NCBI RefSeq assembly: GCF_037975245.1
Contig: NC_092570.1
Coordinates: 19,603,418 to 19,667,417 of the forward strand
Source: Apostichopus japonicus
Taxonomy: Eukaryota > Echinodermata > Holothuroidea > Aspidochirotida > Stichopodidae
DNA: 64,000 bases
Reading direction: 5' to 3'
Part shown: positions 26,979-53,496 of the stretch, piece after piece
How the letters are laid out: every line of letters begins with the position of its first letter
Position numbering within the stretch: position 1 is the first letter of the stretch
Made by a program: the position numbers and the translations under genes
Notes under the pieces: model-generated
Database searches by the model: none
What the model was told of the DNA's origin: nothing
What the model saw: the letters and a program-made list of their open reading frames with translations, nothing else

Positions 26979-28453
26979 TTACAAGGTATCATAAGGAATA
27001 ACTTTTCCATCAGAAAGGCATATCAAACCATGGTTCTTCACAAAACTGATCCCAACCGCCTCGCTCCTCATAGAACATGTGCCTTGATCCTGTTCACAGC
27101 TGATTCTGACTAAATCGCCTTTTGAACGATAGACCATTACCTTGTAAGGTTTTCTATGTTCCCCGGCTGTACCTTCACCCCTCCACAAGATACTGAAAGC
27201 TGCAGCATCGTGAAACATACTCACAGGGTAGAAGGTTTCTTTTCCTGAGGGACTTTCTAGAGTACGTACTGCCTGTTTAGGTGAGCTACCATTGATAAGT
27301 TTTACCACTTTGCCATCAGAAAAAGCGTATGTAAACTTTTGATCGAAAAACCCTGATGCAACGTGAGGTTTTTCCTCTAACTCTAGGGTTTCCACAGGCA
27401 TCAGATCTCTGTCAAGCCTGGTTATTGAGTTGGAAACCGAGTCGGTAACAAGGACACCTGCCGGCAATTGAGGACTTAAAATCACATTTATATACGTTAT
27501 TTCAGACCCATCTGTCAAATCGATATCCTTAGCTGTGCACGAACAATAATAACATGTATCTTTTGGTTCCCTAACTTCAACTTGAAATATTTTGGTACCA
27601 CATCCGACTAAAATGAAAATTTTCGATGGCAGCACTAGTAAGTTATTGCATACTGCAACTCTGGGTAACTTCTTACCATACCCCAGGAAATATGCAGATT
27701 CAATGACATGTGACCAATTAACATGAGATGTGTTATCACATGAAACACATGATAAGCGAATGGCGGGCTTATCTTGATGACGTTGATCAGTTACAATAAC
27801 AACCTGATCTTTATTTACTCGAACCGATCCAACCACCGGTCCAACTGTTATGGAAATGTATCTTGCAGAGAGGGACTTAGGACGGAAGTGCACATTGATT
27901 TCTACGTCTTGCATGGTTTCATTGATAATTTTTGCCTTCTTAATCCCATCTGAAATTTGATCGTTGAAACTATTTATCTTTTGTAAAACTACCAAGTCAG
28001 CTTTGTTGGTTTTTGACTCGATTTTGGCTGAAATTTTCTTACTAAGTGATGAAAGATGACGTAGTTCTCTGTCAGTTTCTTTCAGGGCATTTTCCCGCGC
28101 TTTTTTCAGTTTTGACAGCTCTTTCTCAGCAGTGTCAAGTTGATGATCCATGCTTTCTCGAAACTTTTTAGTAATGGTTGTAATCTCGTTTCGGATCTCT
28201 TCACTAACCATACTTTCTTCCCTCACATATACATTTTGTTCAAACAAATCAATCATTCTATTCACTTCGTTGAGCTCATCTTCAATAAGCCGTCGATATA
28301 TTTCTATCTCGTCACCAAAGTCGTCCTCGGAAAATACTTGGTGATCGTTGTGATCGAAATACGTACACTCGTAACAAACATACATGCAACAAGTGACACA
28401 GAGCAGCATATTTTTACCTTCCTTGTGTTTACAGTGTTCGAATGATGGAATGT
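26979..28453 (-). CDS. DED-B1 exon 4: B-box, coiled coil, C-terminal domain
   Basis: The minus-strand acceptor ends in AATCTTCAACAG at 28454 and opens in phase 1. The B-box (HCKHKEG, LLCVTCC, VCYECTYFDHNDH) is followed by charged heptads and the conserved core VGPVVGSVRVNKDQVVIVTD. The frame is uninterrupted to the stop at 26979-26981. Upstream in the intron is an (AT)n run at 28488-28534. Confidence 0.9.
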
Positions 28454-28491
28454 CTGTTGAAGATTGAAATATAATGGAGATAAAATAATAT

Positions 28492-28536
<45 letters not shown>

Positions 28537-31519
28537 AATAAATTCTATCAACATAATCCCCTAACAGTTATGAAAAATCGTATTCCATTTGGAAGATATC
28601 ACAGATTTAATGATTCTTCACACAAAGACACACAAGGCTGAAGAATAATTGATGGAGTCCAAATATGAAATCATCGAGCCATAGTGTCTTTCCATGTTCT
28701 TATGTTTTTCTTAGTTTATTACATCGTTTTATTTTCTGGAATGGAAGGTGAGTTTTGCAAATACTGCCATCTAAAATATGGAAACTGTTTACATGAACTA
28801 ATGATAGCAGGTGTCAAAGTCAACACTTTTCCTTGAAAATATGAAAGGAAAAACTAAGAGAAAGTAAAAAGGTTTCATATTCAAAAGGCGCTATGGCATC
28901 AAAGATTTACAAACTGACAGCTCCCAGACACGACTTTTAAGAAAGGATATCACTGAGTCAAAACGGAGGAACATGTTTTAGCTGTTTTGTGGAATGATTC
29001 AACATAAAGATCTTTCTCATGTTAGTTACAAATGATGGTTGGTTTATGTCCTTAAGAAAAGCACACATATCGATACGTTTGTACATATCATAGAGTTAAT
29101 GATTTAATGAAACTGGAACTATTGTACGAACTACAGGGGCGTCGGATCCAGGCTGTAAAAATAGAGGGGGTTGGCCTAAATTGTGTATTAAGACTGTAAT
29201 GAAAGTGAGGGGAACTTAATATAATCCTTGCATGTTATTTTGGTTAAAAAATACGCAGAACCAGCCTGGATTTCTGAATAGTTTATTACGGGTTGCTGAC
29301 ACAAACATCATATTCATGTCCATCACCGGCGATCACAATAACCCACTGGCCATATGGCCTACTTGCATATGAGTTAAAAGTGAAATTTTAGACATGATAT
29401 ATAATGCATTTACATAGTAGTTAGGCTATAAATTAGGTCTACAATTAGGTTTAATGCTAAACACTATACAGTTAATATGTGCACCATATCGGCGCACGTT
29501 CTACAAAAAGTTTTAATACCGTATACGTTTACTAACGTATCGTACGGCATACTGTATATATGTTCGTGGCAATTTACTATAGATGATGTCTACCTATTGT
29601 AAGTAATTGTCTACTAATTTGTGCTCATTCCTTTTCATATATTTAAAGCCAGTCACACGCCAGTCGCCAAACAGAGATGTAACAGGGTTGATTTATCCCC
29701 CCCCCCCCCATTATAAAAATTAACTATAAAGTTAGTATAGGGCGCGCGACATAAATTTGTGACTGTATAACGCCTAAAGACGAATCTCTACGTTATCGCT
29801 CTCTCCTAATTTACAGGGTATAGGATCCTGACCACCCTGTTACAGAAACAACATAAGAAGTAATACCTTCATTGTCTTCTTCTTCTGCACTTTGTTTAGC
29901 AGGTTCTGTAACAAAACAAAGAAGTGAAACTTAAAATCTTGGCTTGATTACGTTCGTCTTACATCAGAGGAAAAGAAGGCTAACGAATAAATGCAATTCG
30001 AAAAGCAAAGAATAACTTAAAATATCTATATATTCTATGCATTCTTAAATTCAAGATTCTTAAATTGATATTATTGAGCTGATTCTCCTTGATAAAGTTA
30101 AAAGGTTCACTAGTTTTAATTAACTTAATTAATAACTGTTTCTGCTGTGATGTAGGCTAAATTACGTTTGTAGCTAATTGTAGGCCTAAGTGAACATAAT
30201 TTGAATAAAACTCGGCGGAACATCGCCATTGTTAGTTCACAACACAATTTGTAATGTTTCGCTCATCTTCAACGGTCTCCAGCTTGCAGAGAGAATAAAT
30301 ACCATGGCCGTACACGCCACCGTGCCACTCATTAGGAGTGTAAAATATTTCTAAGCGTACATTTTGGATTAGCTTGCACCAATAATTTGTGTACCTTTCA
30401 TCGGACCAAATGCGGACTATATCAGACCACCATTCTCACGAAACTAGCTCTCCGAGATATTTTCGGAATGGTTAGGTCATATACAGTAGGCCTATATCCA
30501 TTTATCGTACACAATACACATTTTAGAGAGCACTGGCCAATTCACTCACCTTTCGTTATCGTCGTTTGGTAAGTTGTCACTATTTCAGCCAATTTCTTCA
30601 TTTTGAGCTTCCCTAAGCAATTCAGCAACGGTTCAACGTTAGATTCAGAGATGATGTTTTTCTCCTCTAGCTTCAAAATGAATTTTACGTCATCTTTAAC
30701 GTTTTCACTTTCAATGAAACTTCGCTCCACTTGAAAGTAAAGTAGTATTTTTCTTCTGACATCTATAGTAGCATGGTTATACAGCTTGAAAAGGAGTCCC
30801 TTGTATTCTGAGGTTGACTGTTGGTCAAAGCAATAAACAACAGCACTAATGATTAAATGGAGTGATAAGCACTGTGTCAACGTGAAAATTGGTTCATATG
30901 TCGTTAAAATGGCTCGAAACTTTCGAGCCAAACATAGGCTATGTGGGGCATACAGAACCTTACATGGGGCTCGATAATTTTATTATTGTTACAAGTAACC
31001 GACATTTTAGAAATCTTCAGGTGACATGGTTATAACATACATGATTCTGATCGGTTTCCAGTTACGGTCCTTTCAAACGATGACCAACAACTGGTTGTAA
31101 AACCTCTAGATCTTCCCCTCCCTTCCCCTACCCCCAACTAAAAAACAACTAATGTGCACGAATGCGGCATTCATATGTGCTTAAAACATGCTTAACACAA
31201 GTTTCGGTGCAAACTGTTTGGATTTGTAACTCTAACGTGCTGTAACCTGGACTACATTTGTTATAAGTTGGCTTAGAAAAGGTTCGGTGAAATGTTTTCT
31301 CGTACTCTCATATGTGTCTATCGTGCATTTCCCTTCAAAGAATATGTTGGTGCGTCTATAAACTTAGTCCAAAACCCTTGTCAACTTCAAGTAAATAATG
31401 CAGAAAAGCTGTTTCATATGATACATATATATACTGAGTGTAACACATTAGCCTATTAAACAGAACGTTCTTACAACGGTACGGTACCTTACCGTTAATT
31501 CGTGTGGCAAAGCCGCCAT
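26979..31519 (-). CDS. DED-B1: DED - B-box - coiled-coil - conserved C-terminal domain protein
   Basis: Four exons on the minus strand: 31493-31519, 30550-30817, 29867-29905 and 26979-28453 (27, 268, 39, 1475 nt; 602 residues). Residues 1-9 are MAALPHELT. Residues 10-98 form a DED-like six-helix death fold (FILKLEEKNIISESNV.PLL). Residues 99-112 are an acidic linker. A B-box zinc finger spans about 119-149 with C-x-H, CVTC, CYEC and H-x2-H ligands. A coiled coil runs from about 155 to 285, then an approximately 310-residue domain ends in PYDTL. No RING, SPRY or clear NHL repeats are visible. Death folds and B-boxes both mediate homotypic assembly, so a cytosolic signalling or innate-immune scaffold is likely but inferred. 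It lies head-to-head with DED-B2, with 524 bp between start codons. Confidence 0.85.
28488..28534. repeat. (AT)n microsatellite in a DED-B1 intron
   Basis: Interrupted TA dinucleotide run 35 bp upstream (transcription sense) of the acceptor of DED-B1 exon 4. Confidence 0.9.
29867..29905 (-). CDS. DED-B1 exon 3: 39-nt acidic linker exon
   Basis: A symmetric phase-1 exon of 39 nt between a GTTTTGTTACAG acceptor and a GTATTA donor on the minus strand. It adds PAKQSAEEEDNE between the DED and the B-box. Its length is a multiple of three, so skipping it keeps the frame. The position matches the 30-nt exon of DED-B2. Confidence 0.7.
30550..30817 (-). CDS. DED-B1 exon 2: death effector domain
   Basis: The acceptor TTGACCAACAG (minus strand) is in phase 0 and the donor GTGAGT at 30549 gives phase 1. 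The 268-nt length equals DED-B2 exon 2 exactly. It encodes STSEYKGLLFKLYNHATIDV, then DDVKFILKLEEKNIISESNV and LKMKKLAEIVTTYQTTI. The L..LE......N...L pattern is typical of DEDs such as those in FADD and caspase-8. Confidence 0.85.
31493..31519 (-). CDS. DED-B1 exon 1: nine-codon start exon
   Basis: ATG at 31519-31517 in a CATCATGGC context opens nine codons (MAALPHELT) ending in ACG before a GTAAGG donor at 31492. Phase 0 matches exon 2. It was chosen because DED-B2 has a start exon of the same length, phase and last codon. Confidence 0.7.
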
Positions 31520-32043
31520 GATGATCAGTGAACGTCATTCCACCAACTTGGTTTCATTCACTCTGTGGATTTCTGTCCATCTGCGACAGTTTTGTTACTT
31601 CCAATAAGACGAAAAAGTTATGCTTTCTTCACTGTATGTACTCTGTGTTGCTGTTTACCCTTAAAATAAATAACAAAACATTTTTTCTTGGCAAACGGCT
31701 TTCAAACAAGCAAATTAAGACTACACGATTTCTATACAGCAATCAGAACCGAGACTAGGGGTGGGTGGCGCTCTATCAACTCAATGTGGTGACTGCTTCC
31801 TTGTTGACGCATGCATGCTTGTCGTGGTTAAAGAATTTCTATGGCAGTTCATCATTGGTAGTTCACCAATGCAGACGGTCACGAAGACTAACCGAATGTA
31901 GTGTACACGGAAAATAACAGCTAGTACGAAGTATGTCATATGAAGAAATTTTCTGGAACCGATTGTAATCCACTGGCCAGGAAGAAGCTTGAAGTAGCCT
32001 AAAAGAGAACAATTTGGAACAAGAAGCTCGGTACACGCACACG
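31520..32043. promoter_or_regulatory. putative bidirectional promoter of DED-B1 / DED-B2
   Basis: A 524-bp interval separates the divergent start codons at 31519 (-) and 32044 (+). It must contain both 5' UTRs and core promoters if the first exons are correct. No clear TATA box, NF-kB or interferon-type element was identified by eye. ORFs in it have no motif. Confidence 0.5.
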
Positions 32044-32070
32044 ATGGAAGAAGGGGCAGACAAAAGAACG
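32044..32070 (+). CDS. DED-B2 exon 1: nine-codon start exon
   Basis: ATG in CACACGATGGA opens MEEGADKRT and ends in ACG before a GTATGG donor at 32071, phase 0. Length and phase equal those of DED-B1 exon 1. An in-frame ATG at 32864 just before exon 2 is an alternative start, but CCAACAG there looks like the acceptor shared with DED-B1. Confidence 0.7.
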
Positions 32071-35000
32071 GTATGGAACCCTTTTTTTTTATATAATTAG
32101 TACTACATTTTCCCACTGTATCGGTCTTTCGTCTATTACATTGCTCGTCTATTAAATATCAAGTCGGGCAGAGCATCCGGTTATGAATACGTTATACGCT
32201 ACAGTCAGAACTTTGGTCAAAATTTTCGAAAATCTGCATTACAGAGTCGTGGAGTTGGCATTTCAAAACAGGAATGTGGGTAGTGAATTATAACTAATTG
32301 ATTTGGGAATTAGTTTATTAGTATTTCCAATGATTCCGACGTAGGATCTGTTTGATACTTTTCAACGACTTAATATACTCTTTTTAGCGAAAATGTGTTT
32401 TAAACTGTCTTTATTTCTTTACTGGGTAGAATCAAGTCTTCCTATATGTTAATTGAGCCTAGGTCATAATGCGTAGAAATGAGATATAGGTCTACTGTGC
32501 TACATTCAGCAATTATAGAAGAAGGAGCTAGCAGCACATTATAACCGAGACCCATGCATTAATGCCGCTCCTGTGCGAGGTTAATAATATATTCATTATT
32601 TTTATTTACCGGAAAACTTTCAGTTTAAAGGATATATCAGGAGACATTAGTTACATTGTTTTTCTTAAACATTGTTTATGAAATACCTTTCCCTAATTAT
32701 GCAACTTTTCTTCGTAAATAAATTAATTAAGGATACGTGTTAATTTCCTCACTCAATGAACCATTAAATTGTTCCTCAATTTTAATGCTTCCTCTGCCGT
32801 TTTGCGTAAAGACAAGTATTTATTTTGCAGCATTATGTGAAACATCCACATTCATGTAATTAAATGTGTATCAATTGCATTGCTGTTTTCCAACAGGCGA
32901 ATGACGAATACAATGCTTTCACCGTGATGCTTTACAAGGAAGTCACAATAGACGAGAGAAAGAAAATTTTAATGACTTGTGAGGTGGAGCGAAAATTTAT
33001 TGAAAGCAACGACATTGCTGATGACACCAAATTTATTTTGAAGTTGGAAGAAAAGAACATTATCTCTGAATCTAACGTGGGACCTTTATTGAAATGCGTA
33101 GAGGCACTTGACCTGAACAGATTGGCCGGCATAGTCAGATCTTACCAATCGAAAATCACAACCGGTGAGTAGTGTGCCATTATTTTTAAAAGTATTCCGA
33201 TATTGTAATATGATCAATTACTCCTCATAGAATATACCACAGACGAAAACTCACTGCAAGTAAAAGGACACGTCAGTGTTTCGTTTATTTCGTTTCGTTT
33301 ATTTATTTGTTTTTCCCCACAACATAGACATTATTTGTAGCGAATACAGAGAGTTATGGAATGTGGAAGGAAGTGTATCAAGAAACACCCTTTGGGCTTA
33401 TCTAGTGATACACTCCCTGTACATAGAGTACAAAAATAACTTACAAAAAAGAATTAAGAAAAGAACTAAAAAAGAAAGAAAAGAAGAACAGGAAGAAAAA
33501 GAAACAGTAAAGAAAGTGTTAAAGTAAATCAATCATTCTAGGGCGACGAAGGCAAACCAGTGTGGCATATCGCATGTTGTTCACTCTTATAGAAATATGC
33601 TGTAACCTACGCTATCCGTAGTCCGAATTTTGTATCGTAAAGTAAAATTTAAATCTAGCAGCTATTGTCATTGGTGTAGGTGGAAACATTGATGAAAAAT
33701 AGACCTTTAGGCTATTGCTATAGTTTTCGAGTCACTGAATATCGAGCCGAGTCGTGTCACAAGGCTGTCGAGTATCGAAACAAGCTTAACGTTCATGTCT
33801 AGTCGTTCGAGCCTTTTAGTTGCATTGTTCGAGTCAAGTAAAGTCTGTCTGAGCCTGTCTAATATTAAACCTATCAATATTACTAACCAATCGATATAAC
33901 CATATTACTTATAGTAGTAACTGTTATGGTTTGCATGGAACAATATGGAACAATAAGACGATAAGAGTATGATGTTATGTAATTCAACGGATATATTGAT
34001 GGATCAACGGTAACGGTAAGTAACAACTAAAACAATAAACCTACACCAACCCAAGCGTTTTATTCCTGGTTCAGGCCCGTCCAACATGTAACATTAATAA
34101 CATCAGGCTCGTACGTAAACACTAACATAACAGTAACCTACTTGTTCATTGCGACGTCATCACTAACTAAGGTAGGCTATGTGGAACTGTCGGACATAAT
34201 TTCCGTATAAATATATATGCTCTCAGACTTAGAATTTTAGCCACATGCTGAAAGATGGGAGTACATAAAAGAAAAAAAATTGTAAATTCAAATTCCTCTG
34301 TTACTTTCCTTGATCTGATTAATACTAAAGCAACATGTGTCTATACTGGCAGAAATGTGTCATTGCTTTTCCTGCTAGTAAATGGCGAAATCCACTCGCA
34401 TTTAGCCTGTAAACAGTTTAAAATTTTAGTATATATCTTCAGTCTATGTTTTAAACGTTTACATATTTTAAGAAGTAGTTGTAGTTTCATAATTTTAATT
34501 ACATTCCGGGGCATACTTTCTGTATACAATCATCAATTATTAGCGTATTGAACGAGACAATTTAGTCCGTGTTAATAAAAAAAATAATGCCTACTCGGAC
34601 TTAATGTGAAAATCTGCAAAGAGTTACTTGAGGTCTGGCGGAGACAGAAAGTTGACACTGAAGCAATGCTTGCTGCATATGCTGCCATTTCTAAGCGTTG
34701 AGTTTAAAATATAGAAACAGCAGACTGCAAGAACTTTGTTGAAAGGCAGTGTAAGAACGATTTATTAAGGTTAATATACCAGTCATTATTATAATATGTA
34801 CAACGTCTTCATAATTAGTTCGATCAAAATTTCTTAGAATTTCGATGTAATCATGCACTGACACGCAGTTGCTGATTTTTCTTTCAGAATCCACTAACGA
34901 AGTTGCGGAGGAAAAAGGTAATGGAGGTACTGTATTTCATATTTGGTTTCATTTTGTGTTACTTTATGGCTGTTCATATGAACCAAGGTTTTTTCAAGTA

Positions 35001-37857
35001 ACAATGAAATTGTCTAATACTTAAAAAGAAAATTAGTGATGTGGAATGAACGAAATTGAACCAAAAGATACTTTCAAATAAAAAAAGGGGAGAGGGGAAG
35101 TATGAAGGTAACAAGGTAATCGTTGGGTACGATTCATAAAGAGAAATTTTAATCATTAAGAACCACTGGAATAGTTCGATAACCTGTCACGTATTCGAAG
35201 CCTATCTTTCATATTTCTGTAAATGTTCAGTTATGGTTACACGGAATGGTAATGTGACGTCAGAGGGCCTACAGAATAATGCCCTAAAACCCACTACCCA
35301 CATATCGTGATACACAGCGACAATTGATATGCAACTGCTGTAAAGGACAGGCTATGTGCAAGCCATGTGACGGTGATAAGATAACCAACTAACGTTTTCT
35401 ACAAAATGAGCTTGGAATGAAAGACTAAAATAATCAAATTAAGGTACTGATACCAGGGAGTTGTTATGGAACATAACAACTCCCTGCTGATACTAGCTCA
35501 TATATGTCGTTACTAAGTCGGCACATGTACGCTTAAAAATGTATTTGCCTCCTATCACAATTCAGTATACTCTTCTAATGCTCTTTTTTTTTATAACTGT
35601 ATAACGTATTATGACAACATATAGAATCGTGTTTACAACTTGTTTCAACTTTGCAAACTTTATTGAACACGGTTTTAATAACCTCTTGAAACCGAATGTT
35701 TCCCTTTCCGATGTGAAAGCATCATGACGTAACGTTACCACCGCGTTTCAATGATACATATAATAACAGCATTTGTTCAATTAATTTCTTTCAATGTATT
35801 TACAATGACGTTTCAGAAACTTTTCATATCTCAGCTCGGCTTCTACGGGACTATCGCTGATTAATTGTTGAATCTTCTCCCAATTTAATGAGCTCTCCTT
35901 TAGTTCTTTAGCCACAGAGATTCCAATAATATAAATTCACCAAAAAATCTTCCTTATCTTCCCCTTACACCAGTCCACCATGAGTGATTTTCAAAGGGAT
36001 TTTAAGACAAAATGCCATTTTCCACCAGATTCAAATGAGTGAAATTACTAGCTTTTACGCGCTCTTTTTTACATTTTGTCGCAAACCGTAGTTCTTTTTA
36101 GATACAATTACAACGAATGGTATTCGGAATACAGTAACACCCTTTCGCATTTTCAAAATTACTTATTACGTTAATCACCAGTTGAATGTTATGGAATTTC
36201 CATGGAAGTCTGGCTAAAGAGATGCGCAATTTAACAATCTCTGTTAGCAAATTTAGGTTAGTTTATAGTGAGAGGTGTCTTTAAAATGAAAAATCAAACG
36301 GCTTCCCTCCAAAGTAAGAAACACAAAAACACCTAAATCAACTTCTGTATGTCTGTGTGTTCTTTGTGATTCAAACCCTGCACATCTTCAACAGAACGTC
36401 AAAGTTGTGGGCATCTGGATGAAGAGAGTCAACTACTCTGCGTCACTTGCTGCACGTATGTTTGCTACGAATGTGCATTTGTCAACCACAAGGACCACGA
36501 AGTTTTTTCAGAAGAAGAGTTTGGCAACGAGATAGAGATTTATCAACGGCTTGTTGAAGATGAGCTGCAAGAGGTTAATCGAATGATTGACTCACTCGAA
36601 CAAGACTTAAATACAGGAGAAGCAACTGTTAGTGATAAGGAAATACAAAGAGAAGTTGCCACAATTGTTCAAACGTTTAACACAGGAATGGAACGTCAAC
36701 TTGAACTGTCTGAAATGAAACTGTCTAAAATGAAAAATAACCGAAAAAGAACCGAGGAGAAAACCGAAAGAGAATTGAGTCAACTTCGGTTACTCAGTGA
36801 CAGCATTCTTAAACATACTGAGTCAAAAAGCGATAGCCCCGATTTAGTATTTCTGCAGAAAATAAATGGTTTCAAACATGATGTCTCTGAGGGCATTAAG
36901 AAAGCGGAACGCATCAGCGAAAATTTGAAGGATATTGAAATTTGCGTGCGTTTTTGCCCCTATTCTCTTTCTGCTAGATTTGTTTCCATAACAGTTGGTC
37001 CGGTGGTAGGATCGGTTCGAATAAATAAAGATCAGGTTGTGATTGTAACTGATCAACGTCATTTTGATCAGCCCGCCATTCGCTTATCATGTGTTTCATG
37101 TGATAACACATCTCATGTATATTGGTCACATGTCATTGAATCTGAATATTTCCTGGGGTATGGTAAGAAGTTACCCAGAGTTGCATTATGTAATACATTG
37201 TTCATATCTTCATCGCAGATTTCCATCTTAATAGGATGTGGGAACAAAATATTTCAAGTGAACATTTTGGAACCAAAAGATACATGCTACTTTCAGTCCT
37301 TTACAGTAAAAGATTTCTGTGTGCCAGAGGATTCGATAATTTCATGTATCAGTATTATAAGGTCTCAATCACCAGGCAATGTTGGCCTAATTGTAATCGA
37401 TTCTGTGTCACACTCAATTTATAAACTAGACAAAGATATGAAGCTTCTGGAAACCATGGAATTGAACGAGAAGCCTCACTTTGCAACAGGCTATTTTGAT
37501 AAGAAGTTTGTGTATGCTTACTCTGATGGCAAGTCGGTAAAGCTTGTCAATGGGAACTCACCGAAATATGTTATCCGAACTCTAGAAAATCCAACAAAGG
37601 GTGACAAATTGTTTTACCCCGCTGACATGCTTCACGATGCTGCTGCTTTCAGTATCTTGTGGAAGAGCAAAGGCATTGAAGGGCAAAATGAGAAATCCTG
37701 CAAAGTTATGGTTTATCGCTCGAACGGTGATTTAGTCAGAATAAGTCATGAAAACACATATTGCACGAGTAACGAAGCCATCGGCATAGGGTTTGTGAAG
37801 AATCATGGATTGCTCTGTCTTGCTAACGGGAAAGTCAAACTGTACGACACACTGTAA
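32044..37857 (+). CDS. DED-B2: DED - B-box - coiled-coil - conserved C-terminal domain protein
   Basis: Four exons: 32044-32070, 32897-33164, 34888-34917 and 36395-37857 (27, 268, 30, 1463 nt; 595 residues plus TAA). Residues 1-9 are MEEGADKRT and 10-98 the DED (MLYKEVTIDERKKILMTCEV; KFILKLEEKNIISESNV). Residues 99-109 are the linker. The B-box lies at about 113-143: C113, H115, C124, C127, C132, C135, H140, H143. A coiled coil spans about 150-285 and the conserved C-terminal domain about 291-595, ending LYDTL. Only one residue separates the first zinc Cys and His (usual B-box2 spacing is two). Poly(A) signals AATAAA lie at 37940 and 37952. It is a paralogue of DED-B1 in opposite orientation. 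The role is inferred as for DED-B1. Confidence 0.86.
32897..33164 (+). CDS. DED-B2 exon 2: death effector domain
   Basis: The acceptor GTTTTCCAACAG is in phase 0 and the donor GTGAGT at 33165 gives phase 1; 268 nt. It encodes ANDEYNAFTVMLYKEVTIDE and ALDLNRLAGIVRSYQSKITT. Helices 1-6 of a DED can be aligned with DED-B1 (the stretch KFILKLEEKNIISESNV is identical) and, more weakly, with DED-B4. Confidence 0.87.
33265..33520 (-). mobile_element. possible retroelement 3' remnant with (AAATAAACG)n-like tail
   Basis: On the minus strand the segment ends in repeated AAATAAACGAAACG, like the simple-repeat tail of a LINE or SINE. A purine-only stretch on the plus strand (33445-33515) borders it. No coding motif remains, so family assignment is not possible. 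Confidence 0.3.
33521..34887 (+). other. DED-B2 intron 2 (distal part)
   Basis: AT-rich intron sequence without a recognised exon. ORFs at 34255-34551 and 34341-34529 have no motif. Confidence 0.5.
34888..34917 (+). CDS. DED-B2 exon 3: 30-nt linker micro-exon
   Basis: The acceptor TTTTTCTTTCAG and the donor GTAATG at 34918 bound a symmetric phase-1 exon encoding STNEVAEEK plus split Glu/Gly codons. It corresponds in place, phase and acidic character to DED-B1 exon 3. Skipping would keep the frame. The donor is weak, so splicing may be optional. Confidence 0.6.
34918..36394 (+). other. DED-B2 intron 3
   Basis: No exon was recognised. It contains a 33-bp perfect palindrome flanked by a direct repeat (35454-35486; see separate entry). 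Confidence 0.5.
35454..35486. mobile_element. 33-bp palindromic mini-element with target duplication (copy 1)
   Basis: CAGGGAGTTGTTATG and its exact reverse complement are separated by GAA. The flanks are direct repeats CTGATAC (35447-35453 and 35487-35493). Both arms begin CAGGG as in hAT ends. It looks like a transposon reduced to its inverted repeats. A second copy lies at 49843-49870. Confidence 0.6.
36395..37857 (+). CDS. DED-B2 exon 4: B-box, coiled coil, C-terminal domain
   Basis: The acceptor CACATCTTCAACAG is in phase 1. It encodes SCGHLDEESQLLCVTCC, VCYECAFVNHKDHEVF, a coiled coil, and VGPVVGSVRINKDQVVIVTD. About 200 nt at 36987-37187 are close to 95 percent identical to DED-B1 while the coiled coil is only about half identical at protein level. 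TAA at 37855-37857. Confidence 0.92.
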
Positions 37858-39320
37858 CTTTGACATAAAGTCAACTTAAAAGGTACAAAGAAGAAGAAGA
37901 AGAAGAAGAAAAAATCCCGGCATCATAACAAAGCTAGTCAATAAAGGCAGAAATAAAAGAAAACATAAAAAGGAATTTACTCAAATTGCGGCAGAAAAGC
38001 CACGTTGCCAATTCTGACTTGGCACAGATTAAGAAGGTTACCATAAGCTAGGGTGCAGCAATGTAATGATTTAATATACGGTTTTAATTATCTAATTGTG
38101 GACAATCACACATGTCTGGAAAGGTATGTGAGGAAAAGGCTGCATTTCACAATCCCAGATTTTCATCTATGACGCACCAAAGATATTTACTGGTGTAATC
38201 ATATTGAAAAATGGAAGCTAGTAAAAACATGTAACTTTATCTATAATTTAGCAGACTGGTTGGAAAATATTCAGTGAACACAATGTGGTGTGCTAAACTA
38301 CCAGATACTTGTCTTTCGAAACCAATTTCATGATGCTTCAAATGCCCATCCTTTTGTTATATATATTTTTTTCAATTTAAGCAGTCGTATGTTACCACCC
38401 AACCCTCGCTTCCGTCGTTTCTAACGTCAAAGCTAAAAGTAATTGGATGTATACCTTTTAGCAGAATTCAATATAGTTAAAGCCAGATCGACAATGGTGT
38501 ATACACCAAAAATATCCCTTTTTTACTCAATCATTCGCAAAATCACACTTGCTGTGAACATCTGTATATAATGTGGAAAAGAAGCGAATCCTTGCTCACA
38601 TGCAAATCAATGATTTACTTAGACACAGACGATACCATATTACATCATATCAAAGTAATTTTTCTTTCTTACATTCTGAAACGCACGTATATTTTGAGAA
38701 GTACTGCCATGCAAAGTCCATCAATCTAAAATCGTTCTGTTGGACAACAAAAGTGGTTATAACCATGCACTCTGTCAATTAGAATGAAGTTTGGTACCAC
38801 ATGTGTGTCATTAGCAACAAGAATTTGAATCTTAGAGGGAGCATTTTTTGGGGGGATAAATAGCGTGATAGACTGTCACTTACGATGCCCTCATTGGAAA
38901 CTCTACATTCCTCTGCTATTGGATATACCCGTTTCCATTTTCAAAGATACATACGATGTAGAAATAGCAAGGGATCGAACACACCTACGACACTGATGTC
39001 ATTTTCTTCCCATACCTGAATATGGACCGGTATATTAAACTATAACTGGCTGACCTCTCTTGTGTACATTGTTGACATTTAAGTTCAAAGATAATATCGC
39101 GGACACGTTTGCAAATTATTCGAAACTATATTTCAATTGGGATGTAGCAGAATATGATGTGTTTCCTATCAGTAGTTTAATTGAAATTGTCAGTACACAT
39201 CGAAGAAGCTATGGATTTGAAAGAGAAAAGTAATACTGCATTTTAATGTTTAAAAGTAGGTTACTAATACGGTATGACTTAATTAAATTTGTGAATGAAA
39301 ACCCTGCAAATCTTCAACAG
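37858..39320 (+). other. interval between DED-B2 and the orphan B3 exon
   Basis: It contains the DED-B2 3' UTR with two AATAAA signals (37940, 37952) and about 1.4 kb without a recognisable DED, start exon or linker exon. The last 25 bp (AACCCTGCAAATCTTCAACAG) resemble the intron end before DED-B2 exon 4, so the duplication included the acceptor. Confidence 0.55.
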
Positions 39321-40786
39321 AAATTACACCACGAGAAGGTTGTGGGCACGCAGATGATGAGGGTAAGCTTCTCTGTGTCACATGCGGCATTTCTGTTTGC
39401 TACGAATGTGCCTTCACTGGCCATGAGGACCACGAAGTGCTTTCGGAAGAAGAGTTTGACGATAACATCAAGAAATCTCGGCTTCTTCTTGACGATGGCG
39501 TGAAAGAAGTATACCGAATGATTGAGTCATTTGAGCAAGAGTTGATTGAACGAGAGAAAAGAAGTAGTATTGACGAAATGAAAAGTGACATCGCTATCAT
39601 TGCAATGAAGTTTCAAGACTCCATTGAGAGTCAATTTGAAAATACAAAGGTAAAACTGTCAAATCTTAGGAAAGCTCGAGAAGAATCCTTAACAAAAACT
39701 AAAACTGATTTAAAACATCTTTCTTTACTCATCACTCAAATTGAAGAAAGCACTGAATCAAAAAGCAACATTCCTGATCTAAACTTTTTGCAAAAAATAA
39801 ACCAGTTTGAAGAGCAAATCTCAGGAGGCCTTAAAAGAGCGGAGAACATCTCGGAAAATTTGAAAGACGTAGACATTAATGTTCGGTTTTGCCCTTCATC
39901 CCTATCTGCAAGATTTGTTAATATAACAGTCGGTCCGATCATAGGGTCAATTCGCATAAATGAAAACCAAGCAGTGATTGTAACCGACCAACGTCATTTT
40001 GATCAGCCCGCCATACGTTTGTCATGTGTGTCATGTGATAACACAGCTCACGTGGATTGGTCACATGTCATAGAATCTGAATACTTCCTGGGATTTGGTA
40101 AGAAATTACCCCAAATTGCATTATGTAATATCATGCTCATTTTACCGTCGAAGATTTGCATTTTAATCGGATGCGGGAACCAGATTTTTCAAGTTGAAAT
40201 TTTGGAACCAAAAGATGCATGTTTTTATGATTCGTTTACAGTCAGAGATATAAAGTTGCCAGAGGGTTCTCAAATAGCATGTTTGAGTGTAATTTTGAGT
40301 CGCCTGCTGCCTGCAGGTGTCGTTGTAACCGATTCGATATCCCAATCAATTGCCAGATTTGACAGAGATCTGGTGCATGTTGAGACCATAGAGTTAGAGG
40401 AAAAACCTCACATTGCAACTGCGATTCACCATGATACGTTGACGTATGCCTACTCCAACGGTAGAGTTGTTAAGATTATCGATGGCACTTCACCAAATCA
40501 TATAATCCGAACTCTTGAAAATCCACAACACGACCAGTTACTGTATCCTGCCGATATGTTTCACGATTTCACCGATTTCATTATTTTATGGAAAAGTAAG
40601 GGTAGTGTCGAAGAAAAAGAAAAACTATATAAAATAATGGCATACAGAGAGAACGGTGCTTCGGCCAGACTAAGTTGTGAAGGTACCTATTCCACGCGTA
40701 ACGAGGCTATTGGGATTAGCTTCGTAAAGAATCATGGACTTTTGTGCCTTTCTAACGGGAAATTTGTACTTTACGATACCCTATAA
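39321..40786 (+). CDS. B3: orphan terminal exon (B-box, coiled coil, C-terminal domain) of the DED-B family
   Basis: Open from the acceptor TCTTCAACAG to TAA at 40784-40786: 487 codons after a phase-1 split codon. The B-box (GCGHADDEGKLLCVTCG; VCYECAFTGHEDHEVL) is complete, then a coiled coil and the conserved core (VGPIIGSIRINENQAVIVTD), ending LYDTL. An AATAAA lies at 40827. The exon has no stops or frameshifts, so it appears to be under selection, but no first exons or DED were found between it and DED-B2. It could be an alternative last exon of DED-B2 (phase 1 fits either the DED exon or the linker exon), a separate gene with unrecognised first exons, or a young truncated duplicate. Confidence 0.75.
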
Positions 40787-45051: not shown

Positions 45052-46278
45052 TTTTCTCTTTACTTGAATCTCTGGTAAGATCACGAAGCCTATGTAAAAC
45101 GTAAATGCTCGTTGAGAAATTCTAGTTCTATTACTATATAACACGGGCCATTAGTTAGATACTTACTATGACCTTGTCACGATATGTATTGTATCTACCG
45201 CGTATTTTTGGTTCAAGGAATTTCCCATGACAGCTACCTATTGCGAAATAAACCCTTATTTGGTAACGTAGTGAAGCCATACAAAAAGTGATTCTCAATG
45301 AATTATTGCTACACTTTATTGCCGTTACCCGACATTAAAGACTTTCTCATGACAAATGTAAATACCATGTGACGTGGATAGCGTGCAACGGCTAAAAAAG
45401 CGAACAAGTATATATGTAAGAAGTAAGCGGGAGTGGTAGGACTGACCTTGACCTTTTCTCACTTGTTCCTATTGTATTTCGGTCGTGAGAGAAACAGCGA
45501 TTGGTTGAAAACAATTTTCATCAATATACGGGGCAGGGAGTGGTTTTTTTATGTTGTTATGCTCGTGGCTGTGAAAGATGTACTAAAACCTACGAATCAA
45601 TTATTAACTTCAAAAGTCACCCATTAGAAGAAACTATCAATTCCTGTTGTAAGTGATATTACATTCTGTTTGTGCACACAGTAAAAGCAGTTCCATAGTC
45701 ATAGCCCCAATCATGTACGATGGACCTGAAGGTACATTGAGACATGATTGGGAGTTTCTGTCTTAAGTATGACATTTAAACAATATGAAAAGATTGGTCA
45801 TGGTGTGATGTTACTGTAACTTTGAGAACCAGTATTTTACATGGTTATGACGTTTCATCAACATGAGTATAGGCCTACCAAGGCATCTCAACAGTATGAA
45901 ATTTTTTGCCATTGAAGATGTCGTGTTAGTTTTACTTGCCAGGCCGAAAAATATCTTGTTAAGGATGCGTTGTCAACGATTTGGAGTATCTTGAAAACTG
46001 GACAATTGTTGTCAAGATGCCATAGGTTATGGCAATTCAGTTGGCAGTTCAACAAAATAGCAAATACCATGTAGGCTACGATGTAACACAGCAAATCACC
46101 AGCTTCATAAATTGTATTAAGATGTACAGTTTTTGAAAGTCGCGACAAAATATGCAAACTTTTTTACATAATACTTATACATCATATATGTTTCTTCAGG
46201 ACTACTGCCAAAGCAGCAAATTCGTTAGTAAATGTATGTTTGCCTTTACACAGATAAGACTCATAGTAGCGTGGTTTT

Positions 46279-46316
46279 GATTGGCTAGACATAGTCGATT
46301 CGGTCGCAGTATAAAG
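46279..46316 (+). promoter_or_regulatory. CCAAT/TATA-like core promoter candidate
   Basis: GATTGGCT (inverted CCAAT box, 46279-46286) precedes TATAAAG (46310-46316) by about 25 bp. Downstream, a potential first exon would end at the GTAAGT donor at 46479. A TTTTCAG acceptor at 47411-47416 sits 34 bp before an ATG at 47451. The combination suggests a transcription unit, but no transcript evidence exists. Confidence 0.35.
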
Positions 46317-47450
46317 TCAATGTAATAAACCACGTATAACGCATGCAATCAAACGAGCTATACGTGAACAGAGCTGTTTGTAGTACCATCTACATTACGG
46401 AAGTAAACCTAGGTAAAAGTCTAAGCGATCTTGTGCGTGTGCACGTACTACTCAACTCTACAAAAACTATCTAACTGGGTAAGTCATCGGTATTCTATTT
46501 TTATTTTATTCTTGATTGTACTTTCTGGCATTAAGACAAGCGTTTCCCCACTTTCCTTATCTGACCCATGACGGAAAAGAGCATATCATACAAGAAAAAT
46601 GATCGAATATGGGTATCAAACGGTTGGCAGATGTATCTCGTCTAGGTAAATAGGCCTTTTTTTGTAGGCTAAGGAAGAATACAAGATCATATGCTGTATT
46701 TAGAGTTTCGCTAGAAACGTGTAAATTATTTTCCCAATTCCATATCAAATCAACAAGTTTTGGAGACGTTAGTAGTTTAACTTACTACCACTCTCCTTGC
46801 ATGATTAGAGCACCGTGAAATAATCATAGATAAGGCCTACCCCATAATTATCAAGTTTTTACTATGTACCAAATTGTAGGGTTCTAGCGTTTGTCAACAT
46901 GCAGCATGCATGTTTGTGATTTTTCATTGCATAGTGTATTGCCTGGACCAATACTTAACTTGCGTCTAGTTAAATTCTCCATAGCACTTATGAATATATT
47001 TGTATTTCTTATTTTACTGTAGATATATGTGTAAAGTATGTGTGTTTAATGGGATAAGGTCGAGTGTTCTGTGTCAAAATAAATTCCTGAAAGGTCTTGA
47101 ATATTGAGAGTTCAGAGCAGTTCTAAGATATTGTGCAGTAATTTCTGATTAAACTGAAAACAAGGGACATCTTAAACCTGTACCAATTGAGTATGGGAGA
47201 GCATGAATGTATACCAAGGTAGTGAGAGCAATAAAACATTGCCCTGGCATGGTGAATTGCTACTTAGGTTCTTTAAAATACAAACCATTCTCAATTTTTA
47301 TTAACAACAACATCGATTAAGGTATGACCAATTAAGTGCTTTTCTGTACACCGATATGTCTTGCTAAAACCAAAAGCTTACTGACCACATCCCTAACTAG
47401 GCATAAATGTTTTCAGGGATTGAATTCTGTTAACCTTAACAACCATCGAC

Positions 47451-47678
47451 ATGGAGCAAATTAGAAGTCTCAACTTGAAAACAAAATTATCCAGCTACAG
47501 TGCTTTTAAGGTTTTAAACTTTCTCCTTGCTGCCCCACTGAGCTTTGACCTTCACAAAGAATTACTGGGTTCATGTACTCATTATGAGACAGCCATATGC
47601 CAATATAACAATGATGCCATGTTTAAGAGACTAGGTTCCGTGTACTCATTAAAGAAAAGCCATAGCCATATGTACTAG
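47451..47678 (+). CDS. hypothetical small ORF behind a plausible promoter and intron
   Basis: A 75-codon frame opens with MEQIRSLNLKTKLSSYSAF in an ACATGGA context and ends at TAG. No family was recognised. Support is only positional: a TATA/CCAAT pair about 1.1 kb upstream, a donor at 46479 and an acceptor at 47416. It may equally be chance. Confidence 0.22.
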   Translation: MEQIRSLNLKTKLSSYSAFKVLNFLLAAPLSFDLHKELLGSCTHYETAICQYNNDAMFKRLGSVYSLKKSHSHMY

Positions 47679-47699
47679 CTACTGCAGTTTTCTATTGAG

Positions 47700-48200
47700 T
47701 ATTTAGAGAGTGTTCAAGTTTTGACACCTACTGACCTTTAATGAACTCTGACCTCCATCAAATTGTGTACAAACTATACACGCAAGGCTATCATACCATG
47801 CAGATATGAGCTCCTTCACGTTCTGGTTCTGGAGATATAGCACTTATGACATATTCACATTTTGCCCACTGCTGACCCCAAATGACCTTTGACCTCTACC
47901 ACAATCAATTACGGCTCGCTGAAATAATTACAGGAAATCCACATGCCAAATATAAGAACCGCATAGGCGACCGTCCATAACAAGATTTTCACACATTTTC
48001 CCCTCTTTTGACCTTGGACTACTCACCAACGGCAAGCTACACAACAAGTTTGAAATTCCTGCAATTTCTGGTTCTTGAGATATTTGTGTGAACAATCAGA
48101 CTTTGTCCCGTGGTGACCTCAAATGACAGTTGACCAATACCAACAACAATCCCAAACCAGTTCTACCTAAGGAGAACCTATACAAACCAAATATGAATTT
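47700..48200. repeat. degenerate tandem repeat containing TGACCTTTGACCT motifs
   Basis: Three to four diverged units of about 125-160 bp share TGACCTTTGACCTC.ACCA, then a TTCTGGTTCTTGAGATAT segment (near 47820-47842, 48060-48082). The most intact unit contains a perfect direct repeat of TGACCT spaced by one base (47883-47895). Confidence 0.5.
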
Positions 48201-48304
48201 TACCCCAGTTATCGATCCTTCCGATGTTAGAGCGTTTACGATCAAGTGTCACATGCACACACTCGCACACAAGCGCCATCACCATGGCATATATTCCTTA
48301 TGTA

Positions 48305-48697
48305 CATTGGCGTAGGAGCCCAAGTTGATGGGGGGGGGGGGCTGTAACGACTCGGGCGAAATAATATAATATAATATAACCAAAAGTTTTCGCGAGCTCT
48401 GCGCGCGTTCAAAATGTCACTGTACATATCATATAAGCATGCATCGGTTATTACATCGCATCCCAATTACATACAATCATTTGCCGTGTTATTACCCTTC
48501 CATATTGGTTATAATTTTTGGGGAAGTCGTTACAATAATAATGATAATAATAATATCAGTTTAACCCTTGAAAACACGTTGCAATTTATTCTTTCAGTAC
48601 GTGACCAAAAAAGTTTCAGCATATTGCCCGAATTTCACGAAAAATATTTGGTTGGGGGGCTGCAGCCCCGCCCCCCCCCCCGCCTCCTACGCCTATG
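48305..48697 (+). mobile_element. 393-bp hAT-like MITE with near-perfect 8-bp target duplication
   Basis: The ends are CATTGGCGTAGGAG... and ...CTCCTACGCCTATG. The flanks CTTATGTA (48297-48304) and ATTATGTA (48698-48705) differ at one position. A G-run and a C-run lie inside the left and right ends. It is not the same internal sequence as the 21.7-kb MITE but shares the GGCGTAGGA end motif. It has no transposase. Confidence 0.75.
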
Positions 48698-48705
48698 ATT
48701 ATGTA

Positions 48706-50214
48706 CAGCTGATGAAACAGGGCATGAAACTAAAGGACGTTTGGCATGCATGAAAGCATGGTTCAATTGACAGTATAATAGTGCAGGCAGACAAGGGTGG
48801 GCTGGGGCATAAATTACTACAAGCTCAGTGATCCAACCAGCAGTGCTTGGAAGAAGTGGCATATTTGGTGCCTCTGACCGTACTTAACTCCATACTCAAA
48901 GATGCATATATTTCCTGAGAAGATCATAACGGTTTGATAGTGTCTTCTGCGCCTCTGCGCCAGCTGTTCCATGGATGCCTTTAAGACGGTGTGTCAATCC
49001 GCCCCTGCGTGTAGACAACAGTGGACTGACACAGAACATATTGATCATACCAAGCTGACTTAAAAAACTTATGAAATTAACTTGATTTGTGTTGCTATTG
49101 AACTTGGATGTGAAACACAGAATGGTTTATTTGGAAGGAAGAGGAAGTGGGTGTCGAACCAGTAGGAAAGTTAGATGAGAATAGCAAAAAATAGTCAGTC
49201 TTATGAGGTATAGCGCAGAAACTGACCCGAACAATGCCCTGTACAAGTGCCAACTTAAGGTGGCCAATACATAGCACTTAGATTTTTTTTTTAAAGTTTG
49301 GTCCCTTCCAAACAATTGAGCCCGACAAAGTTTGCGCGTAAATGGCACCAAAAATATTTGGTCCAGACAAAGTTGCTCAAACATATACTTGCCTCCCAAA
49401 ATTTATCCCCCAAATATGGGCGCAAATGGTCCCAAAACTATGTGTCCCAAATGCATTTGAGGCGAAAATAAAAATTTTGAATTTGTTTGGTCCCAGATCG
49501 CCTACATATAGCAGCTATTAACCAGCTACACTATACCAAGTTTGGGTACAATCCGACTTACGGTTTTTGCAATGTAAAGATATTGTCGGTCCAAATAGTC
49601 AAAAGATATTGGGCCTCACAAATTCAGGCCCAAAAAATGTGTCCCAAAAAGCACTTGCGGTGGAAACTAGAGCAATGCTGCAGTGGCTCAACCCATCATA
49701 TGTGAAAGGAAAACCAATGCAGTGGAGGGTTACCATGATTGTAAAGTACAGTGTTGAATATATGCACATTAACTAAACTATGCGTACAGCTGCATGGCCA
49801 ATGTGGTAAAACACTCAACAACGCAAGGGAAGCAGGTTACACCAGGGAGTTGTTATTGAACAACTCCCTGGTTATGCTGACTAGCAAATTCTGTCCTGAA
49901 AGTAGTTCTAGCAAATTACTCATGGTCACCAAGTTAGACCACTTCTCTGCTTAGACTGAGATAAACTGGCCACAAAATTAGGCCTTCGTCTGTCTGTTCA
50001 TCTTATATCAGATCTCTCCAATAAAGTAACATTCGGAATGATGTCATTGCCAATGATGTCAAAGTGTAGTAATTTCTTAATTTATAGCTCCACCACTGTT
50101 TACTAAAAATGTAAATATGCGGACAGGGTAACTTTCTGTCCCATCCTCTGTAATATATTCTCAAAGCATATATAATATGTAATTTTCACCAGTTGTATTC
50201 AGTATGATTCAACC
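48706..50214. other. non-coding stretch
   Basis: No supported gene. A segment at about 49290-49640 repeats TTTGGTCC/GTCCCAAA motifs loosely. ORFs here have no motif. Confidence 0.45.
49843..49870. mobile_element. 28-bp palindromic mini-element (copy 2)
   Basis: CAGGGAGTTGTT and its reverse complement are separated by ATTG. It has the same arm sequence as 35454-35486. The flanks GTTACAC and GTTATGC (both 7 bp) match at 5 of 7 positions, consistent with a decayed target duplication. Confidence 0.5.
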
Positions 50215-50373
50215 TGTGGGAGCCGTGCTTATCACGGTTCTCTCAATCAACTGACTTTCCCCCTGACACACTCACTGTACTCAGTAGATATTTAGCCAGT
50301 TGGAGGTCTAATATACCGTTTAATTAAACTACTTGTTCATGTCCTTATTTCTTGTTCACACACCGCTGTGACA
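50215..50373 (+). mobile_element. possible solo or truncated LTR, about 159 bp
   Basis: It starts TGTGGGAGCC and ends GCTGTGACA, followed by ATTTGGTGGAGCATCTGCG, which looks like a primer-binding region just after a 5' LTR of a Gypsy-type element. No second LTR and no gag/pol were seen. The call rests on end motifs only. Confidence 0.35.
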
Positions 50374-50900
50374 ATTTGGTGGAGCATCTGCGCTGTACGT
50401 GACACCTCTGCTGATTCCAAGAACTTCCCCGCGAAGCAGCCAGATTCTTTAGGATATACATGGGCCTTCCTCGAGTTTTCATACAAGGCGCGCACACCAT
50501 CACACACAAAAACGCTCTTATACGTTATAGCACTTATTTAGGATTCGAAAGTAACATGTAACTTGCTGTAAATACATATGTAAATATTCGTTGGTGATTT
50601 TGGTGGCTTGATGATCATCTAACATCTATTTAAATGGACATATACGTCTATTTCAACTTGTACGTCTGGTCTAGCTAGCAAAAAATGGTGGGCATATTCG
50701 CCAAAAGTTTCACAGCAGTGGGACGAATGTGAGCTTTCCTACCATTACGGAGCATTTCAGACGATTACTAACTTTGTCCTTGTGAAGTAATTGCTACTAA
50801 TTGACCCATGTTTGGGCGTGACTTGGGTTCGAAAGAATTTGCATCGTCTCTGGGTGTTAGTAATCAAAAATAATCTTTGACTTTACTAAAATAGATAAAG

Positions 50901-51183
50901 ATGTCGAGTACTGAAAAAGAAACGAAGAAAGCCTTGTACGATGCGTTGTTCAACCAACTACAAGGTACCTTGTCGCCTTCGCAAGATATAGAGAAACTTC
51001 TGAATTACTTGCAGTGTGATGATGAGAAAAAAGAAGACATTTCTTCTCCTCTGGATCTAATGATCTACTTGAGGCAAACGAAAGCACTTTCCCCAGACAA
51101 CGTGGACAATTGCTTGGAAGCTTTTGTACAATGTAGCCTTTTCAGAGCCGCAAACTTGGTGAAGGAGTACATAGAAAGTACAA
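50901..51183 (+). CDS. DED-B4 exon 1: start and death effector domain
   Basis: ATG in AAAGATGTC context; the exon ends at a GTAAGT donor (51184) in phase 1. It corresponds to exons 1 plus 2 of DED-B1/B2 fused. The ORF would otherwise run on into intron sequence to 51275. Confidence 0.85.
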
Positions 51184-53496
51184 GTAAGTCTTATTTGAAC
51201 ATGTTTCTTCGAGTGGGAAATCACAGGGAGCTGCTGTCGCAGTATATTCCTTTATCTTTTTTCTTTACCTGTTAATTGGCAATTGATATATTTCCATCGA
51301 CAAATGTCAAAGTTGATACCCTCATGAATTAAAATTAAGTAAAAAACCAAGGACCAGCGAACCCAGTTCTTAAAGTACAGTACAGGAAATTGCACATGTT
51401 CATTGAGAAAACCAACATCTATAATTCCGCATAACTGTACTGCTTTCATAGAGTTAATGCACCTCAGTTGCAAGTGATGCTTTATCACTGCAACTCTAAG
51501 TGATCAGGGATTCTTTGCGTTCTTCTCATATTCTAAACCTGTTAAAGGGTTGTAATTTGGCAAAGGCCTTATCAAATGTTATAGCTCATGTGGCATAGTT
51601 AAAACAGGTCTAAGTCACGGCAACGTCAACGTCTGTATATGTCACTGATTTAAGTTCCACAAGTTTTGTAACTTGGTTACCCACGCCTCGTATTGTACAC
51701 ATGAGTCAGTCAACTTGTGTCAGCCCTAGAAGGAGTCCATAGTCAATAAGTTTTCGTCTGAACTACCCACAAAAGAAGGAGACAACTGGAAGGTAGTGAT
51801 GTATTTATTCAAAGAATCTAATTGCTGAAGCTTCCTAACTCACCGTTGACATTGTATGAACAGCTCAATCTAGGCTGAATATCATACGCTTTGGTAAAGT
51901 TATACTACAAGCTATTTTCACGGTTTTATCTACATTTAAGCACGAGTCTCAAAGAAAAGCTGCTTCAGCTGCATTTTTGTCCCAACAGGTATAGAATCGA
52001 AGGTCGAGTACGAGAAGGTAGAAATCGAAGATGAAGGGAGCAACATGTGTGAGACACATAACAGGACATTGGAATTACTTTGTAATACTTGCAATAAAAG
52101 AATCTGTTATGGATGTGCTTTCCACAGTCATCGTGGTAAGGACCATGTACTCACTAGTGCGAAAGAAGCTGAAGAGAAAGTAATTGAGGCATTGGCAAGT
52201 CTTAAGCAACATATGGGCACCTTAGATGAAACTCTGAAGTCCATAGAGAGATCTGTCAAGACACCTGTAGACCCGTACACCGAAGCAAACGAAACCTTTT
52301 TGACAGCACAGTTTAGGTTGTGGGAAGAACTGGCTAAAGAACAAGAGCACAAAATTAAAGAGGAATTAGATTTTCAAATACACAAAGAAAGAAGTGAGAC
52401 TACTAAAATACTAGAAAATATTAAAGACTTAAAAGGTCAACTTGCCGCAATTGATTCTCGACTTCACCAACCACCTGACATTAAAAACAAAGGGCATCAA
52501 CTGCAGAGGCTTAAACAGTGGAAAGATTCCATAAAGTCAATTAAAGAAAAGTTGGAGGGAGAAAAGATGGCATTACAGGCTCATGGCCACATTTGCACTT
52601 CTTTTATACCTCTCTCAGATAATGGACGATTTGTAGATTTTCAGAGTGGTACTGTGGTTGGCGCTGTTTCTGTAACCAAACACGCAGCTGTGGTAGTGCG
52701 AGATGAGAGATCTTTTGGAGGAAGTGTCTCACTATCTTGCATTTCCTCTGAAAATGGAGGATTGTTTTGGAAAAATGAGACTGACGAATTGGGTGATAGT
52801 AGCTACCCTATAGTAATTTCGGGTAGTCTCTATTGTAGTGGGGGACACGCAAAAATTTTGATTGCATGCAATCAAACACTACTTGCGGTTTCAGTTGCCG
52901 ATCAGGGTACCATTTGCACAATCGAAGAAAAGGAAGCAAAATTAATAGCAATGCCACAGCATACTTTTATAACCGCCATAAGTACCATTACATCAGGCGA
53001 TAGAGATACTGGTGTTCTACTCGCAGTAAATGCCTCCACAGAATTGATTCGGCTGAATCGAAAGCTTGATCTGTTTGATAAGATAGATTGTAGCGAATTC
53101 GTTCACTCAATATCTTCACTAGCTTGTGTTGATAGTGATATGGCACTGATAGATTCTGCTAGGAACGAAGTTTTGCTAATTAATGATGACAACGTGAAGA
53201 GTTGTTCCTGCAAACTTAAAGCGCCAAGCACATTTCCAAAGCTCTGTAGACCAAAAGTGATTCAGTGGGACGGCACGTTTTGGGGACTTATTTGGGAGAG
53301 TACTGCGCATGAACAGCAAGGAGGTCCGAAATGGCAACATTCAATTTACCTAAAAAATGGCAAGGAATATCACTCGGGTAATTCCGATACTTGCCGTCCC
53401 AATACAGAAGTTGTGTCCATCAGTTTCCTTAAAGATCAAACACTCGTCTGTTTTACAAACGGTCAAGTAAAGCCATTCTCTACAAATGTTATATAA
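50901..53496 (+). CDS. DED-B4: divergent DED - B-box - coiled-coil - C-terminal domain protein
   Basis: Two exons, 50901-51183 and 51989-53496 (283 and 1508 nt), give 596 residues plus TAA. The start MSSTEKETKKALYDALFNQL is the only ATG before a DED-like death fold (residues about 8-92; DLMIYLRQTKALSPDNVDN). The linker KVEYEKVEIEDEGS precedes a classical B-box2: C115-x2-H118, C126, C129, C134, C137, H142, H147. A coiled coil runs from about 155 to 300. The C-terminal domain keeps the family pattern (GTVVGAVSVTKHAAVVVRDE) but is far from the other members and ends QVKPFSTNVI instead of YDTL. The compact structure (no separate start exon, no linker exon) suggests an older paralogue. Cytosolic signalling or immune role is inferred. 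Confidence 0.88.
51989..53496 (+). CDS. DED-B4 exon 2: B-box, coiled coil, C-terminal domain
   Basis: The acceptor TTTTTGTCCCAACAG is in phase 1, as in the other members. The frame stays open through linker, B-box, coiled coil (EELAKEQEHKIKEELDFQIH) and C-terminal domain to TAA at 53494-53496. An AATAAA lies at 54166. Confidence 0.9.

Follow-up and report, generated by a model that had tools for sequence, protein, structure and literature searches.

Gene organization of the cluster

The 64-kb stretch of Apostichopus japonicus DNA analysed here (contig NC_092570.1; hereafter the window, to which all coordinates refer) is animal-type DNA with introns, and carries a cluster of three gene models (A, B and D) and one orphan exon (C). 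Each of the three models encodes, in one open, splice-compatible frame, a death effector domain (DED) followed by a B-box, an extended helical region and a predicted C-terminal beta-propeller. The models comprise 602 residues for gene A (31519..26979, minus strand), 595 for gene B (32044..37857, plus strand) and 596 for gene D (50901..53496, plus strand). These exons and coordinates, together with those of exon C (39321..40786, plus strand), agree with a first-pass annotation of the window. Each of the four long exons (A, B, C and D) encodes a B-box, the helical region and the C-terminal domain.

Gene A, on the minus strand, would begin with a candidate start exon of nine codons ending in phase 0 (31493..31519; donor score 5.2, a fair value), the higher-scoring of the two candidates above 3 that lie upstream of the DED exon. 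The DED exon (30550..30817; phase 0 in, phase 1 out) is followed by an acidic linker exon of 13 codons (29867..29905; phase 1 in and out), which has GT-AG borders, an open frame and a counterpart in gene B, and then by the long exon, which runs to the stop codon (26979..28453; alignment A2; Pfam zf-B_box match). Gene B, on the plus strand, has a nine-codon candidate start exon ending in phase 0 (32044..32070), a DED exon with a Pfam DED match (32897..33164; 57% identical to the DED of A), an acidic linker exon of 10 codons (34888..34917; phase 1 in and out), and a long exon that runs to the stop codon (36395..37857). Gene D, also on the plus strand, consists of a DED exon with a Pfam DED match (50901..51183; donor CAA/GTAAGT, score 5.59) and a long exon to the stop codon (51989..53496), the B-box of which lies at 52048-52146. 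D starts at an ATG inside its own DED exon; the start codon of A and B must sit in a further upstream exon.

In A, B and D alike, the intron between the DED (or linker) exon and the B-box exon has GT-AG borders and interrupts the codon in phase 1, and joining the exons leaves an open frame. None of the seven main exons (four long, three DED) contains an in-frame stop. In their two remaining frames, the long exons have 31-34 and 43-49 stops and the DED exons 7-10 and 5-9.

The N-terminal death effector domain

All three DED exons match Pfam PF01335, with expectation values (E) of 8.1e-6 (A), 0.0012 (B) and 2e-4 (D), at scores of 26.4, 19.5 and 22.0 bits, respectively, all of which are below the curated cut-off of 35.9. 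A tblastn search of the window with the DEDs recovered the three DED exons, and the remaining matches had E of at least 2. Single-sequence searches of the PDB with the DEDs of B and D found no DED; a three-row DED profile picked up caspase-8, though weakly (E 0.048), and its matches at E 0.49 and above included unrelated proteins.

Structure prediction with AlphaFold2 (AF2) gave a DED model with a predicted local distance difference test (pLDDT) score of 93.0. The model is a six-helix death fold, nearer to DEDs than to DD, CARD or PYD, and structure comparison ranked solved DEDs first, at 14-21% identity (structure-match rows 1-18). The top match was PEA-15 bound to ERK2, with the best DED Z score of 12.8; other PEA-15 rows (Z 12.1 to 10.9) are level with a caspase-8/cFLIP row (11.1). 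The first-pass annotation had placed a DED at the N-terminus and had tied this claim to a DED-fold match in structure prediction. Such a match was found, alongside the three Pfam matches.

B-box, missing RING and helical region

Pfam zf-B_box matches all four long exons, above cut-off in D (E 8e-7) and below it in C (E 0.0011), B (E 0.0028) and A (E 0.025). Zinc ligands in B-box order are likewise present in all four by a loosened pattern, and in D only by the strict one. In gene B, the zinc finger reads C-x1-H-x8-C-x2-C-x4-C-x2-C-x4-H-x2-H (36406..36498, plus strand). The Cys-x1-His spacing also occurs in A and C, and places the first zinc-ligand His one residue nearer the Cys than in TRIM29 and in D, which has the canonical Cys-x2-His. 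A four-row B-box profile (A4) searched against the PDB matched the B-box of TRIM29 (E 9e-6), and also TRIM28, MID1 and MID2, and an alignment of the B-box and adjoining helical region to TRIM28 spans 134 positions (E 3.8e-4). The Pfam matches, ligand order and TRIM29 match thus bear out the B-box of the first-pass annotation. The exons upstream of the B-box, in the position of a RING, encode the DED. The reported absence of a RING also held up: no RING pattern was found in the six contiguous frames of the 64 kb, where the chance expectation is also zero and a RING split by an intron would escape.

The AF2 model of the long exon of gene B (486 residues, 36397-37854) has long helices at residues 39-72, 80-143 and 149-177, the last mostly of low confidence. 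The helical region (36511..36927, plus strand), modelled with moderate to low confidence, is likely to be a TRIM-like coiled coil. For the coiled coil of the first-pass annotation, the modelled long helices and the 134-position alignment to TRIM28 speak in favour, and the heptad count and the search for TRIM matches to the helical part (see below) against.

The C-terminal domain

The C-terminal domain is 301-305 residues long, the other copies being 66, 65 and 26% identical to that of B. In B (model residues 181-486; 36937..37854, plus strand) it is modelled as a beta-propeller of 23 strands, with either six or seven blades. By sequence it is nameless: Pfam gave no NHL match at E 10, although HMMER filters can drop weak matches. 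Self-comparison with hhalign found no internal sequence repeats, and in a profile self-comparison for propeller repeats 19 of 40 shuffles reached the observed score. The domain had been described as novel, which stands insofar as no sequence name could be given; a new fold was rejected on the match of the model to the known beta-propeller.

Several other matches were read as chance. These are a Pfam CxC3 match in three of the four members (E 0.0055, below cut-off), a carrageenase-propeller match of A (E 0.044), five NCBIfam families (E 0.0042-0.079) and the lone PDB sequence match of the domain, an anti-CRISPR protein (E 0.036). A propensity table giving 51% strand for the domain was not relied on, its result for the DED being mixed (46% helix, 31% strand).

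Exon C and sequence divergence within the cluster

The reading frame of exon C, which encodes B-box, helical region and predicted propeller, is intact and constrained. Its acceptor has about 32 bp of intron in common with that of the long exon of B, with no further homology at blastn E 0.05. No DED exon precedes it by tblastn in 37858-39320 (1.46 kb), and its first in-frame Met comes only after the B-box. When spliced to the linker exon of gene B, exon C is open and in frame and would give a protein of 596 residues. The simplest reading of the sequence is that exon C is a candidate alternative last exon of gene B. Alternatively, it may belong to a gene of its own whose start exon escaped notice, or be a decaying copy; candidate ATG exons in 37858-39320 score at most 3.0, but with B's own candidate start at 2.4 a short start exon is conceivable. 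Genes A and B are arranged head to head, with 524 bp (31520..32043) between the candidate start codons of A (minus strand) and B (plus strand), and this interval is possibly a shared bidirectional promoter.

The long-exon proteins of A, B and C are 56-60% identical to one another, and that of D is 22-25% identical to each. For the three A/B/C pairs, Nei-Gojobori estimates of nonsynonymous (dN) and synonymous (dS) divergence were 0.27-0.29 and 1.13-1.39 (near saturation), respectively, with dN/dS of 0.21-0.24; dS was 3.4 for C-D and not computable for A-D and B-D. Synonymous similarity between A and B is concentrated in a near-identical tract of the propeller (aligned codons 224-263 of the long exons), where 39 of 40 third codon positions are alike, versus 56% overall, a level reached by none of 2000 shuffles. 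In the same tract, 97% of same-residue codons are identical, versus 62% overall. For A-C and B-C, the top windows are less striking (31/40; 78 and 147 of 2000 shuffles). The A-B tract fits recent gene conversion between inverted neighbours.

Searches for relatives covered viral and prokaryote sequence collections, and are not informative on spread among animals. Alignments A2 and A3 gave 92 and 46 pattern matches in viral contigs, respectively, and A3 gave 125 in genome contigs, with no confirmed relatives among them.

Other features of the window

Upstream of the cluster, 9350-13206 (plus strand) contains exons of a class C G-protein-coupled receptor, with two 7tm_3 matches above cut-off and an NCD3G match below it. 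By eye the receptor is mGluR-like, and further exons are possible near 5.2 kb and 14.7 kb. Several repeats are also present. At 15866-16475, an 18-bp unit is arrayed about 34 times, in part inside an open frame (15692-15967) whose product would consist of RKVVNV repeats. A 48-bp repeat (17692-17921) has an open minus-strand frame with a repeat unit of 16 residues. TTACC-rich tandem repeats occupy 62070-62710 and 63581-63904, some with TTACCGCGGTAA-like palindromes, and are perhaps satellite or transposon ends. Scans of the window for Rfam families at the gathering threshold and for tRNAs with ARAGORN gave no matches.

Interpretation and alternative explanations

At about even odds (probability roughly 0.5), the genes form a cluster of pyrin-like sensor or scaffold genes that combine DED, B-box, helices and propeller and signal through the DED. 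The helical region would form an antiparallel dimer as in TRIM proteins, the B-box would contribute higher-order contacts, and the propeller would present the surface that recognizes a ligand or host target. Clustering upon ligand binding could then gather the DEDs and seed their assembly, with recruitment of FADD- or caspase-8-like partners and, as the outcome, inflammatory signalling or cell death. In the absence of a RING, such a protein would be a scaffold and not a ubiquitin ligase. Exon C would give gene B a second, interchangeable B-box/propeller sensor. This scheme is drawn by analogy with pyrin. Its scaffold and DED steps follow from known families; the ligand, the partner and the outcome, and with them an innate-immune or cell-death role, we infer.

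A number of results weigh against this interpretation. The canonical DED charge triad is E/D-RxDL, and the RxDL Asp is missing from all three DEDs when aligned by eye (KKLA in A, NRLA in B, FRAA in D), so the assembly surfaces of these DEDs may differ; DED2 of caspase-8, as aligned (KSLL), likewise lacks it. The best DED Z score is just below 13, the tool's warning level for helical bundles, and DEDs have other roles, such as that of PEA-15 with ERK2, the nearest structural row. Additionally, AF2 confidence for the B-box, helices and propeller is 60.9 overall with a predicted template modelling score (pTM) of 0.50, the helical region alone has no TRIM match in the PDB at E 1, and heptad bias is weak by a simple heptad count. 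Within the gene models, the donor of the linker exon of A is weak (0.54), and the start exons of A and B are the weakest and most uncertain part. Both are nine codons long and end in ACG/GT; that of B was picked from 19 phase-0 candidates for its A-like length and last codon (ACG), and its donor score (2.4) is no better than that of chance candidates before exon C (best 3.0).

A different and unlikely explanation is that the proteins are regulators or decoys. Their DED would cap or sequester a kinase, in the way that PEA-15 binds ERK, or FADD/caspase-8-like proteins, the B-box, helical region and propeller would anchor the complex, and death signalling would be dampened. The structural ranking picks no function, given that PEA-15 rows and a caspase-8/cFLIP row overlap in Z, and the attached scaffold and propeller would suit clustering better than plain capping. 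An equally improbable one is a housekeeping or developmental function for a protein of TRIM-NHL-like type that has no RING, the propeller binding RNA or protein and the DED acting as a mere assembly module unrelated to cell death. TRIM2/3/71-type proteins have this layout, in which a propeller comes after the B-box and coiled coil, and the purifying selection among A, B and C would also be expected. However, the search for NHL matches was negative within the sensitivity of the HMMER filters, and clustered copies with gene-conversion-like exchange are commoner in immunity genes.

The fusion itself would be an artefact of neighbouring genes if the DED exons and B-box exons belonged to different mRNAs. 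Motif and phase alone link the exons across introns of 0.6-1.7 kb, an ATG directly before the first B-box Cys makes a later start conceivable for D, and gene A has an ATG inside the B-box. However, no in-frame Met precedes the B-box in exons B and C, and order, strand and phase 1 are alike in A, B and D despite the divergence of the D long exon. Separate mRNAs are highly improbable.

A bolder form of the sensor/scaffold interpretation is doubtful. It holds that the pyrin design arose independently in an invertebrate lineage, with a DED and a propeller in place of PYD and B30.2, as a sensor family resembling the inflammasome or the death-inducing signalling complex, in which gene B can choose between the tandem B and C sensor exons and its head-to-head neighbour A exchanges sensor sequence with it by gene conversion. 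If so, replacement of the RING by a death fold evolved more than once in TRIM proteins, and the cluster would separate the indispensable elements of the pyrin design (death fold, dimerizing B-box/coiled coil, recognition domain) from those that can be exchanged. With one DED exon and two candidate sensor exons, it would also be a compact system for asking whether clustering by a TRIM-type scaffold suffices for DED signalling.

Comparison with known systems

The cluster DEDs resemble those of FADD, caspase-8, cFLIP and PEA-15 in fold and size, but differ in sequence (14-21% identity) and in the RxDL Asp. NHL-type TRIM proteins (TRIM2, TRIM3, TRIM56, TRIM71) are alike in that a domain of propeller type follows their B-box and coiled coil, whereas in the cluster proteins no RING was found, a DED is added and the propeller has no NHL sequence match. 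NHL repeats are described for TRIM subfamily C (PMC3503706).

Death-fold shuffling in marine invertebrates is already well described. Death-fold hybrids occur in amphioxus (PMC2575513), which also has DED-TRADD-N proteins with propellers, and in oyster DED-TRADD-N proteins the variable parts include a B-box or propellers (PMC8195603). Similarly, DEDD2-type TRADD-N proteins, usually with a DED, are fused to TRIM ligase domains (PMC8195603). Products of lineage-specific expansions in marine invertebrates, these proteins resemble those of the cluster in that one chain joins a DED to a B-box, beta-propellers or TRIM ligase domains (PMC8195603), and they lower the novelty of the cluster. They differ in that TRADD-N stands beside the DED, whereas no TRADD-N was matched in the cluster proteins, where DED, B-box, helices and propeller are consecutive. 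A DED-B-box-propeller protein without TRADD-N was not found among the matches listed in searches of open-licence PMC full text, and none of the titles or abstract openings listed there mentions a DED-B-box protein.

The nearest design is that of vertebrate pyrin (TRIM20, MEFV), a TRIM protein in which the RING is replaced by a PYD, followed by B-box, coiled coil and a C-terminal recognition domain, B30.2, on an antiparallel helical scaffold (PMC4455283). A RING-less TRIM protein with a death fold in the RING place thus has a precedent, and pyrin recruits ASC through PYD-PYD contact (PMC6698799). The cluster proteins differ in having a DED and not a PYD, a propeller and not B30.2 (PRY/SPRY), and a short linker from DED to B-box (13 codons in A and 10 in B, versus 60 or 280 residues in pyrin). 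They belong neither to the pyrin family, having no PYD or B30.2, nor to full TRIM proteins, no RING having been found. Their relationship to pyrin is most likely convergent.

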